From Natronospira bacteriovora (GTDB taxonomy: Bacteria > Pseudomonadota > Gammaproteobacteria > Natronospirales > Natronospiraceae), in assembly GCF_030848495.1 (NCBI RefSeq), contig NZ_JAVDDT010000007.1, positions 1-64,000 of the forward strand: a DNA stretch of 64,000 nucleotides, in the 5' to 3' direction. The notes under the pieces are model-generated. The model searched no databases, had not been told where the DNA came from, and saw nothing but the letters and a program-made list of their open reading frames with translations. Below, piece by piece: positions 45 to 26,496 of the stretch. The position numbers were made by a program, and so were the translations under genes. Every line of letters begins with the position of its first letter. Positions within the stretch are counted from its first letter, which is position 1.

Positions 45-144
45 CCCCCTACACCCCCTGTCAGCACCCTCCTACATCGCCACGGGCAATGCCCTGATTT
101 CGTCAGGCCCCTTCACGCCGTATCGTTACACCCAACGCAGAATG

Positions 145-420
145 ATGGAGCGACGAAAAGGGGGAGGATTGCCGGAGGGGCGTGCGTCAGGAAACACGTA
201 CGAAACCAGCCAGGAAGGCGAACCGGCAGAAGCAGCCCGCATTCTGTGAGGGTCGGGATGACCCGACCGGCCGTGGTCGGTGGATTCAGGAGGAGTCAGG
301 GGACAGGCTGGCCCAGGACGGGTCGCTTCAGGGAAGAAGTCGGGCAGGCGCCCGGGCAGGGCCGTCAGGGAGTGCGGTCGGGAAACCGCGGACAGACCTC
401 AGGCTGTCCGCGGTTTTTTC
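145..420 (+). ncRNA. Candidate CsrB/RsmZ-type CsrA-sequestering sRNA
   Basis: About 250 nt carry some sixteen GGA triplets, many in the CAGGA/CAGGG context bound by CsrA/RsmA (for example near 188, 211, 287, 299, 314, 330 and 367). The segment ends in a strong intrinsic terminator. No protein in any frame looks real. Known CsrB, CsrC and RsmX/Y/Z RNAs are arrays of GGA motifs in hairpin loops that titrate the translational repressor CsrA. The 5' end is a guess and I saw no convincing GacA/UvrY upstream box. RNase P RNA, tmRNA and SRP RNA signatures are absent. The identification rests on motif density plus terminator, not on homology. Confidence 0.5.
384..419 (+). terminator. Rho-independent terminator of the candidate sRNA
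   Basis: A perfect 12-bp GC-rich stem (384-395 with 404-415) has an 8-nt loop and is followed by a run of T to 419. It is a textbook intrinsic terminator on the plus strand. Confidence 0.88.
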
Positions 421-426
421 TTTGGA

Positions 427-514: not shown

Positions 515-1840
515 CTATTCCCTGTCTTCGACGAACGCACGCAGGCTCATGTCGGCCAGTTTGTCGTCCACCTGCCTGTCCAGGTCATCCAGCAGCTGTT
601 TCACCGGCGCGATGGACTTCATTTGCGCATCCGGGTCATCCGCTTGCTGGTATCCGCGGGTGGCATGGTGGATGCGTTTCAGCGTCATGCGCGCCAGGTC
701 CTGTCCTGGCAGAAACCCGGCCTGATGGCCCTCGGTGCTGAGTATCAGGCCGGCATCTTCCAGCCGCACGATGACCGATTCCAGTACATCGCCGCGCACA
801 TGCAGCTCACGACAGAGCGTTTCGAAGGTCCAGGGTGAATCACCGTTTAAATAGCTGCGGGCAATCAGATACATCACTGCCAGGCCCAGCTCTTCCTTCT
901 CCCGGTGGGTGGCCCCCATGGCCGACGGCAGGCGGGTGACGAACTGCGGGTTCTGGATATAGAAGCTGATCTTTCCGCCGAACAGCAGGATCAGCCAGCT
1001 CAGGTACAACCAGATGATGAAGAAGAGCAGGCTGGCAAAGCCCGAATAGATGGCGGTGTAACGGGCTGATGTGGCAATCACCTGCGCGAAGATCCAGCCG
1101 GTGGTCTGCCAGGCCAGCCCGGCAATGACGGCACCGGTCAGGGCGGCGCGGAGTTTTACCCGAGTGTTGGGCACGAAGACATAGATGAAGGTGAAGGCGG
1201 CTACAACCAGCAGGTAGGGCATGATGGTGCTGAACCACACCATCAGGGTGCCGAAGGGTTCCACCTGGGAAATGCGCTGGACAATCGTGTAGCTGGAGAA
1301 GGATGCCGTGACGCCCACCGCGGAAAAGACCAGCACCGGCCCCACCAGCACCACACTAACGTAGTTGCTGAATTTTTCGGCCATGCCCCGCTGACGGCGG
1401 ATGTGCCATGTCTCGTTCAGAGCGGCCTCGATCTTCTGCAGCAGGGAATAGACGATGTAGACCAGCAGCAGCAGGCCAACCGAGCCCAGTACCCCGACCT
1501 GAATGTTGTCCACGAAGCCGAGAATGTTGTCGGTGACTTCGGGCCCGCGTTCACCAAGCGGCTCCAGTGTTCTCAGCAGTACAGGCTCCAGCTGGTTGTG
1601 AACGCCGAAGCCCTTGAGCACCGAGAAGCTGAAAGCCAGCAACGGCACAATGGAGAGCAGGGAGGTATAGACCAGGCTCATGGCCCGAAGATTGATCTGG
1701 CCCACCGCGGCATCTCGGAATCCGGCATGGATAACCCGGGCGATACGCACCAGCCAGGCCATTTTGCGGCTGGGCAGATCCTGAATCTGTACGGACCACA
1801 GCCAGTGTAGAAAGCGATCCCTCGGGTTCACTGCATTCAT
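515..1840 (-). CDS. YihY/UPF0761 (BrkB) family inner-membrane protein
   Basis: The 441-residue protein has about six hydrophobic helices in its first 290 residues and the family pattern around LRAALTGAVIAGLAWQ. The family was once called RNase BN; it is now regarded as a membrane protein of unclear, possibly transport, function. After the membrane part comes a soluble C-terminal extension of about 140 residues that looks like a winged-helix fold followed by a helical acidic tail; E. coli YihY (about 290 residues) lacks it. It is the last gene of a leftward operon, with an ATGA overlap with the upstream ATP-grasp gene, so the three products are probably made together. Confidence 0.85.
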   Translation of the reverse strand: MNAVNPRDRFLHWLWSVQIQDLPSRKMAWLVRIARVIHAGFRDAAVGQINLRAMSLVYTSLLSIVPLLAFSFSVLKGFGVHNQLEPVLLRTLEPLGERGPEVTDNILGFVDNIQVGVLGSVGLLLLVYIVYSLLQKIEAALNETWHIRRQRGMAEKFSNYVSVVLVGPVLVFSAVGVTASFSSYTIVQRISQVEPFGTLMVWFSTIMPYLLVVAAFTFIYVFVPNTRVKLRAALTGAVIAGLAWQTTGWIFAQVIATSARYTAIYSGFASLLFFIIWLYLSWLILLFGGKISFYIQNPQFVTRLPSAMGATHREKEELGLAVMYLIARSYLNGDSPWTFETLCRELHVRGDVLESVIVRLEDAGLILSTEGHQAGFLPGQDLARMTLKRIHHATRGYQQADDPDAQMKSIAPVKQLLDDLDRQVDDKLADMSLRAFVEDRE

Positions 1841-4454: not shown

Positions 4455-4527
4455 GGGCGTACGATGATCTCCCCGGCTCAATGCCCCAATGATAGTGGCA
4501 CGAAAGGGGGGCAGGCCACCATAATCA

Positions 4528-4607
<80 letters not shown>

Positions 4608-9249: not shown

Positions 9250-9723
9250 TCAAGCAAACCCTGGCGGGTTCCACTCCTGCATCATCTTCTCGCGGGCGGA
9301 GCTGACGCGTTCGGACATCAGGCCGGCGAAACGCTTGAGCATGTCATAGCCGAAATCCGGGTCTTCCTCGCAGCGCTTGAAAATGACATCGCCGTCGAAG
9401 CGGATCACATTGGCATCTTCCAGGGCGCGGGCCTGGAAATGCCACTGGTAGGGCGGAATCAGCCAGGACCAACCGATGATGGCGCCCTCACCGAGGTTCT
9501 GCAGCTCCAGCGGAGGCCCCTCAATGGCGGCCACTTCCAGGCTAATGCGCCCGTCGGTGACCAGATAGAAGCTGTCCGCCTTGTTGCCGTGACGGAAGAT
9601 CACCTCGTCCCGGCTCACCTTCCGGCTGACGGCATGCTCGGCGAGAAAATCCAGCCAGTCGCTGTCCAGGTCAGCGAAGAAACGCTGGGATTCGATCAGT
9701 TTGCGAATGGCTTTCTTGTCCAT
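9250..9723 (-). CDS. Single-domain cyclic nucleotide-binding protein
   Basis: The 157-residue protein is a CNB (Crp-like) beta-barrel without a DNA-binding helix-turn-helix. RHGNKADSFYLVTDGRISLEV is the first part of the barrel and GEGAIIGWSWLIPPYQWHF covers the phosphate-binding cassette region. That cassette lacks the usual R-A-A arrangement, so cAMP binding is doubtful; it may sense another ligand or serve as an accessory subunit. A GGAG Shine-Dalgarno sequence lies seven bases before the ATG. It stands alone, divergent from the hotdog-protein gene. Confidence 0.75.
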   Translation of the reverse strand: MDKKAIRKLIESQRFFADLDSDWLDFLAEHAVSRKVSRDEVIFRHGNKADSFYLVTDGRISLEVAAIEGPPLELQNLGEGAIIGWSWLIPPYQWHFQARALEDANVIRFDGDVIFKRCEEDPDFGYDMLKRFAGLMSERVSSAREKMMQEWNPPGFA

Positions 9724-9888
9724 GTCCGTCTCCGCTACAGCCGTTGGCTAATCGAGCTTTCAGTCTAGCCGCCAGAGTGAGGCCCTCCTTGATCAAGGTC
9801 AACTACCCGACCGGCTATTTCCCAGAAATACTTCGGCCCGCTATGCTGTCGCTCCTTGCCCGCATCCGCAAAAAGAGGTCTATTCGGC

Positions 9889-25282: not shown

Positions 25283-25437
25283 GTCACTTCCCGGTGATTG
25301 TTACAAGGGACTCAATCCCATCGTCATCAAAGAAGAATTCGTATTGCCCCACAGGGAATTGAGGTAAGCCTTAACGCTGCGGGGAATGATAGAGAATGGG
25401 TGAGAGCACTTGAAGGGCGTATTGCTGTTATGGCCTG

Positions 25438-26496
25438 TCAGATTTGCCTTACAGAGTCGGTAATTTGATTCGATTCGCTCAGTTCCACAAAGGCCTCGCC
25501 CATGCGTTCGGAGGCTTCCACCACCTTCTCCCAGTAGGCGATGCGTTCGGCGTCGCTGAAGCGGTAGAAGTCCTTGCGGTCGGGAATCTTGCCGTGGGGC
25601 AGGCTGGCCACCAGTTCATTGGAGGGGGCGATGATGAGTGTGTTGTCGAGACCGTCGAGCTGGTTGCGGCGTTGGGGTTTGCGCTTGTCGAACCAGCCGG
25701 GGACGGCGAAGGGATAGAAGTGGGGGAAGAGGCGAATGCCGTCGGCCATGTCCTCGGGCAGGGCCGGGTGGTAATCCGTCAAACCGCCGTCGAGGTAGGT
25801 GCCCTGACTCCCGCCGGGAATGTCGTGGACCACTTCCATCACTCCCGGAATGGCGCCACTGGCCAGCAGGGCCGGGCGCAGGTTGTCTGTCATCAGGCGG
25901 AAGCGTTCGGTGGGCAGGTCCTGTGGCGTGGCCAGGGTGTGGGCGGCGGCCTCGCTTTCGAACAGGCTGCGATGCACCCAGCGGCCAAGCCGGGCGCGTT
26001 CACGACGGTTGGCCAGGGCGGCGGCCAGCAGGCGGCCATACAGGCCGGGCCCGGACAGGCGACGCCCGGGGGCCATGCGATTGGCGATGATGCGAAGCGG
26101 CCGCTGCGGGTTGGCCACGGCCTGACCGGGGCCGTCTTCACCCAGGGCCAGGTCCAGCAGCCGTTCACACTCGGCGGAAATGATCGCCGGGGTGGGCCGC
26201 TTCGGGTAGCGCTGCTCGTAGATGTAACTGTGCAGGAAGCGCTGGCGGGCCGCCTCGGGTTCGGCCACCGCCTGCATGGCCATGCGCCAGGCGCCGATGG
26301 AGGAGCCCGTCAGCGTGATGGGCTGCTCGGCCGCCGCCAGCCATTGGCCGAAGAAGTATTGGTCAAAGCCGGACAGGATCAGCCACTTCGGCCCGCCGGA
26401 GGCGGCGGACACCGCCCGCACATGCTGCGGCTTCAGGCCGTGTTCCCTTATGTGGGCCAGGGCCCGCGGCCCGGCTCTCATCTCCAGCACTTGCAT
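25438..26496 (-). CDS. Patatin-like phospholipase
   Basis: The 352-residue protein has a patatin fold. The serine nucleophile is in TLTGSSIGAWRMAM (GxSxG) and the Asp of the dyad in TYLDGGLTDYHPAL (DGG). The oxyanion-hole segment ASGGPKWLIL is less glycine-rich than in plant patatins, as usual for this bacterial subgroup. It probably hydrolyses lipid acyl esters. No signal peptide or autotransporter domain is present, so it is cytoplasmic or translocated by another route. Confidence 0.85.
   Translation of the reverse strand: MQVLEMRAGPRALAHIREHGLKPQHVRAVSAASGGPKWLILSGFDQYFFGQWLAAAEQPITLTGSSIGAWRMAMQAVAEPEAARQRFLHSYIYEQRYPKRPTPAIISAECERLLDLALGEDGPGQAVANPQRPLRIIANRMAPGRRLSGPGLYGRLLAAALANRRERARLGRWVHRSLFESEAAAHTLATPQDLPTERFRLMTDNLRPALLASGAIPGVMEVVHDIPGGSQGTYLDGGLTDYHPALPEDMADGIRLFPHFYPFAVPGWFDKRKPQRRNQLDGLDNTLIIAPSNELVASLPHGKIPDRKDFYRFSDAERIAYWEKVVEASERMGEAFVELSESNQITDSVRQI

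Follow-up and report, generated by a model that had tools for sequence, protein, structure and literature searches.

A predicted GacA/UvrY-controlled, CsrB/RsmZ-type small RNA beside yihY in haloalkaliphilic Natronospira, with a second GGA-hairpin RNA in the same genome

Studies have shown that CsrA attaches to GGA displayed in the loops of short hairpins and that the small RNAs CsrB and CsrC sequester it (PMC3856055), for which several GGA motifs are needed (PMC2375449). The UvrY/GacA box has the consensus TGTAAGN6CTTACA (PMC3171408). For example, CsrB1 and CsrB2 of Shewanella oneidensis were predicted from AGGA/ARGGA loops and this box, and were then verified by Northern blot and through their dependence on uvrY (PMC3171408). 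The searched literature held nothing on Csr RNAs of Natronospira. In this study, we analysed the 64 kb with which contig C7 of a 3.0-Mb Natronospira genome begins (the window; Gammaproteobacteria, order Natronospirales), and we believe that positions 133-420 of its plus strand very probably encode a small regulatory RNA not listed before, which would be switched on by GacA/UvrY and would soak up CsrA through GGA loops. The sequence, its conservation, the predicted structure and the presence of partner genes are in hand; from these we infer that the RNA is transcribed under GacA control and that it binds and titrates CsrA. The locus is laid out as follows, the three species being that of the window and those of the two other Natronospira genomes (G001 and G002).

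59 to 76, plus strand: GacA/UvrY-box-like palindrome TGTCAG-N6-CCTACA, 41-42 nt upstream of CGTATCGT in all three species
119 to 126, plus strand: CGTATCGT, candidate -10 region (TATCGT), an identical octamer in three species at fixed spacing from the box
133 to 420, plus strand: predicted CsrB-like small RNA of about 288 nt, its 5' end estimated to within a few nt
384 to 423, plus strand: intrinsic terminator with a 12-bp stem (384-395/404-415), loop (396-403) and T-run (416-423)
515 to 1840, minus strand: yihY/RNase BN-like gene, the neighbour and synteny anchor, outside the RNA

The stretch of about 470 nt from the contig start to yihY holds no credible gene, and the yihY-like protein has 83% identity to its counterpart in one Natronospira genome. 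The first-pass annotation had let the transcript begin at 145; a start near 131-134 is likelier, and the regulatory region extends back to 59.

The predicted RNA is like CsrB (RF00018, of E. coli and its relatives) in its repeated CAGGA/CAGGGA loops, its upstream palindromic UvrY-type box and its intrinsic terminator, and the densities of GGA are 5.6 and 6.0 per 100 nt in the window RNA and E. coli CsrB, respectively. It differs from CsrB in length (288 vs 369 nt), GGA number (16 vs 22), extended motifs (6 vs 16) and its higher G+C, and it has no match to RF00018. CsrC (RF00084) comes nearest in length and number of GGA (246 nt and 14 GGA by the identical script), but neither its sequence nor its model matches, and its neighbours are other genes. 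The RNA shares ANGGA loops and an upstream GacA box with RsmX, RsmY and RsmZ of Pseudomonas (PMC2375449, PMC3171408), which also give no Rfam match, and it differs in sequence from CsrB1 and CsrB2 of Shewanella oneidensis. The first-pass annotation had proposed a check against the Rfam CsrB, CsrC and RsmX-Z models; the functional kind that it named stood, but no Rfam Csr/Rsm model reached its gathering score. None of clan CL00106 (CsrB, CsrC, RsmX/Y/Z, RsmW) did so for the window RNA, and permissive thresholds assigned no family to it either, while E. coli CsrB and CsrC were found by the identical search. The best match was RsmW (RF02809) at 302-420, over the full model length, with 23.5 bits against a gathering score of 52 and an E-value of 0.07; the resemblance to this Pseudomonas RNA, well below the gathering score, lies mainly in the terminator and an AGGA loop. 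Because all these models stay below gathering level, Rfam-style annotation would miss the RNA, as had been foreseen, and Rfam models miss RNAs of such kind. Typical Rsm RNAs are shorter than this one. CsrB/Rsm-type RNAs drift quickly in sequence, and therefore it can be placed in the known functional class despite its Rfam scores. Judged by its sequence features, it very probably works like CsrB yet lies outside the current Rfam Csr/Rsm families by score, that is, it would be of a known type and not a new one.

The box at 59-76 has one mismatch per half against TGTAAGN6CTTACA. Its counterparts stand at an equal upstream position with small changes, as CGTCAGCATATCCCTACA in G001 and TGTCGGCAATGTCCTACA in G002, and E. 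coli csrB has TGTGAGAGATCTCTTACA upstream. The presumed promoter with CGTATCGT as its candidate -10 (119-126) shows no good -35 element, which is expected of an activator-dependent promoter. In the 3.0-Mb genome, the box pattern occurs at six places, and the reversed-pattern control at one. Those with neither of the two GGA RNAs discussed here are the following.

25436 to 25453 of the window: box match without a GGA RNA
C1:159660, C2:294840 and C11:28999: box matches without a GGA RNA

These four exact matches were rejected as Csr-like loci because no GGA-hairpin RNA lies behind them. The matches in C1, C2 and C11 have apparent protein genes downstream of them and may be chance occurrences or direct GacA targets. 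In other families of the order, palindromes resembling the box (L014 and L015) were likewise rejected as RNA promoters, with protein genes behind them.

The plus strand of 133-420 holds 16 GGA and 8 CAGG[A/G], which agrees with the earlier counts of about sixteen GGA in some 250 nt and at least seven CAGG(A/G). The 16 GGA also fit within 250 nt, and no 250-nt window on either strand of the 64 kb has more. GGA is common in G+C-rich sequence, and against dinucleotide shuffles plain GGA is a weak signal only mildly above chance (16 vs 11.4, p=0.04). In the orthologues, it is near the shuffle expectation (p 0.55 in G001 and 0.28 in G002). Such counts would suit a conserved structured small RNA that is not a CsrA sponge but acts, for example, by base-pairing with mRNA, with GGA as a by-product of purine-rich, G+C-rich loops. 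We consider this reading quite improbable, since the three species all show enrichment of the extended motif CAG(G)GA, which forms the most conserved part and is placed in loops, and since the upstream box is of the type controlling csrB/rsm genes. Against the same kind of shuffles, CAGGR (8 vs 2.3, p<0.001) and CAG(G)GA (6 vs 1.2, p=0.001) both stand out in the window RNA, and CAG(G)GA is enriched in each of the three species (p<=0.001). At least six CAG(G)GA per 288-nt window were found in only a handful of places among 65,802 windows from 82 loci, and two of these places are the window RNA and an orthologue.

Each of the two other Natronospira genomes carries an orthologue, flanked by yihY and a protease-like gene.

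L012, about 1070 to 1365, minus strand: G001 orthologue, the same sequence also being in L049
L009, about 9502 to 9785, minus strand: G002 orthologue, a BLAST match

BLAST with the RNA alone gave a weak match in G002 and missed the G001 copy, so that yihY synteny was needed to find the RNA there. In G001, the orientation of the RNA to yihY is inverted relative to the window and G002. The alignment of 336 columns places five CAG(G)GA in common columns in all three species (window 188, 211, 287, 314 and 366); 52% of the motif columns are invariant, vs 27% elsewhere (shift test, p=0.014). The five motifs, the terminator and the -10-like CGTATCGT are kept in three species, and the surrounding stems drift with compensatory changes. 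In the consensus structure of 84 pairs, derived from those same three sequences, changes on both sides occur in 22 pairs, vs 8.5 in shuffled and 4-7 in slid controls. A model built from the three orthologues matches all three genomes at full length with E-values of 1e-72 to 1e-88, partly by construction. Outside the genus it gave weak partial matches only, none convincing, and no comparable RNA was seen in the yihY neighbourhoods of other families of the order. One could also read the region as an intergenic sequence that is G-rich by chance and whose terminator serves the convergent neighbour, as GGA is common at high G+C and terminator hairpins are palindromic. Conservation that is centred on the motifs, and compensatory changes across the three species, together with the model matches, which are confined to the genus and arise partly by construction, leave this reading hardly any probability. 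G002 has two copies of the RNA's 3' end with its terminator (L009, 7828-7869 and 9501-9550, the second copy about 1.7 kb away), and between them lies an inserted gene whose protein has 386 aa. By description, this is like csrB1 and csrB2 of Shewanella, which flank an inserted transposase gene (PMC3171408).

The extended motifs of the window RNA and their predicted probabilities of being unpaired are as follows.

188 to 192, plus strand: CsrA-type motif CAGGA, predicted loop (0.94), aligned in all three species
211 to 215, plus strand: CsrA-type motif CAGGA, predicted loop (1.00), aligned in all three species
287 to 291, plus strand: CsrA-type motif CAGGA, predicted loop (0.99), aligned in all three species
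314 to 318, plus strand: CsrA-type motif CAGGA in the GCCCAGGANGGG hairpin (0.71), aligned in all three species
329 to 334, plus strand: CsrA-type motif CAGGGA, predicted loop (0.74), in the window species only
366 to 371, plus strand: CsrA-type motif CAGGGA, predicted paired in the window RNA (0.11), aligned in all three species

The stem GAUUC/GAGUC around the motif at 287-291 is compensated in G001, and the counterparts of the motif at 366-371 are predicted open in G001 (0.67) and G002 (0.98). The first-pass annotation held that GGA motifs mostly buried in stems would refute its proposal. In the window RNA, 5/6 CAG(G)GA are predicted accessible, in favour of the proposal, but only 8/16 of all GGA are. 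The mean accessibility of all GGA is no better than in shuffles (p=0.37), and only the extended motifs are clearly exposed. For the two orthologues, the accessibility of GGA significantly exceeds that in shuffles (p=0.013 and 0.007, respectively). With 6/7 and 6/6 CAG(G)GA predicted unpaired in the orthologues, the total is 17/19, and the identical script gave 15/16 for E. coli CsrB and 6/8 for CsrC. The fold z-scores of the three RNAs, from -3.4 to -4.3, are better than those of shuffles. In the predicted structures, several A(N)GGA lie mostly in hairpin loops, as in the CsrB/Rsm class.

The RNA would end at a hairpin formed by AACCGCGGACAG (384-395), the 8-nt loop ACCTCAGG and CTGTCCGCGGTT (404-415), followed by TTTTCTTT. 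The perfect 12-bp stem claimed earlier is exact on reading, and stem and T-run are kept in three species; a simple consensus terminator scan did not list the 384-415 hairpin. One long frame of about 100 codons is open in all three species, which might point to a short protein-coding gene or a long 3' UTR instead of a small RNA. This is very hard to credit: the amino-acid identity of the shared frame (31-37%) is lower than its nucleotide identity, most gaps have lengths not divisible by three, codon-position periodicity is not consistent, and the frame continues through the terminator. Besides, the region has its own promoter-like elements, and its orientation is opposite to yihY in 2/3 genomes. 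The frame tests in three species thus come out noncoding, in line with the earlier view that no credible protein is encoded, and we return to the small RNA.

Arginine 44 is a key RNA-binding residue of CsrA (PMC3856055). The genome has one CsrA (E-value 2.5e-25), which carries its RNA-binding residues, R44 included, and is near-identical to E. coli CsrA. The GacA/UvrY of the genome scores above the NCBIfam cut-off, and its gene lies upstream of two genes that we recognised as presumably UdgX-like and uvrC. A BarA-like hybrid kinase of 925 aa covers the whole profile, with 578 bits against a cut-off of 890. As in the CsrB/Rsm class, an upstream GacA/UvrY-type box goes together with a GacA/UvrY-BarA/GacS-type two-component system in the genome, the kinase being below its family cut-off.

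The orthologues with kept motif loops and terminator, the box at fixed spacing, csrA, gacA/uvrY and the barA-like gene all favour the CsrA-titrating RNA that the first-pass annotation had proposed. With all the required parts present in the RNA, CsrA titration under GacA control is by far the likeliest function. From sequence and modelled structure, we are confident that 133-420 is a CsrB/RsmZ-type RNA, driven by GacA/UvrY and titrating CsrA, with the second RNA probably acting in parallel. In the mechanism that we propose, the BarA-like kinase would drive the phosphorylation of GacA/UvrY, which would then bind the box at 59-76, so that transcription would start near 131-134. The RNA would fold into a row of short hairpins showing A(N)GGA in their loops and would end at the 384-415 hairpin. 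CsrA dimers would bind these loops and be removed from their mRNA targets, and CsrA-repressed genes would be translated again. The RNA would complete a predicted BarA/UvrY-CsrA circuit in Natronospira, and the shorter box-driven GGA RNA beside dtd would probably act in parallel, like CsrC or RsmY.

The recipe of GacA-type box, GGA loops, terminator and synteny also yielded this second, much more widespread RNA. One of the six box places in the genome, C4:256-273, stands before a GGA-hairpin RNA that has a strong terminator and is divergent from dtd.

G000:C4, about 30 to 273 (L131 reverse), minus strand: second GGA-hairpin RNA of about 170 nt, with relatives L142, L155, L144 and L145-L153

In most of the order, its orthologues lie beside dtd or a proline iminopeptidase-like gene (pip), and the model derived from these orthologues matches in other gammaproteobacterial families; no match was found among Rfam families. 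Just before the terminator, it has a near-invariant 3' segment, CUCAAUCACCUC(C), seen at about 1676-1690 of L148 (plus strand) and also in L160, L165, L167 and others, which has AUCACCUCC in common with the anti-Shine-Dalgarno end of 16S rRNA. We speculated that Natronospira has two unrelated GacA-box-driven CsrA sponges, one CsrB-like and restricted to the genus, the other short, order-wide and beside pip/dtd with an anti-Shine-Dalgarno-like 3' segment CUCAAUCACCUCC; taken as a whole, this picture is unlikely. If the tail of the second RNA has a function, the two RNAs together might act on CsrA as well as on the access of ribosomes, and the second one would constitute a family not described before, with members in other gammaproteobacterial orders.

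Both Csr-like RNAs of the genome lie less than 450 bp from a contig end. The contig of the window opens in a perfect 7-bp tandem repeat (positions 1-45, CTCAGCA x6.4). Another simple-sequence repeat occupies about 4480-4600, at the start of a gene at 4531, and reads as Ser-Leu, Thr or Val runs depending on the frame.
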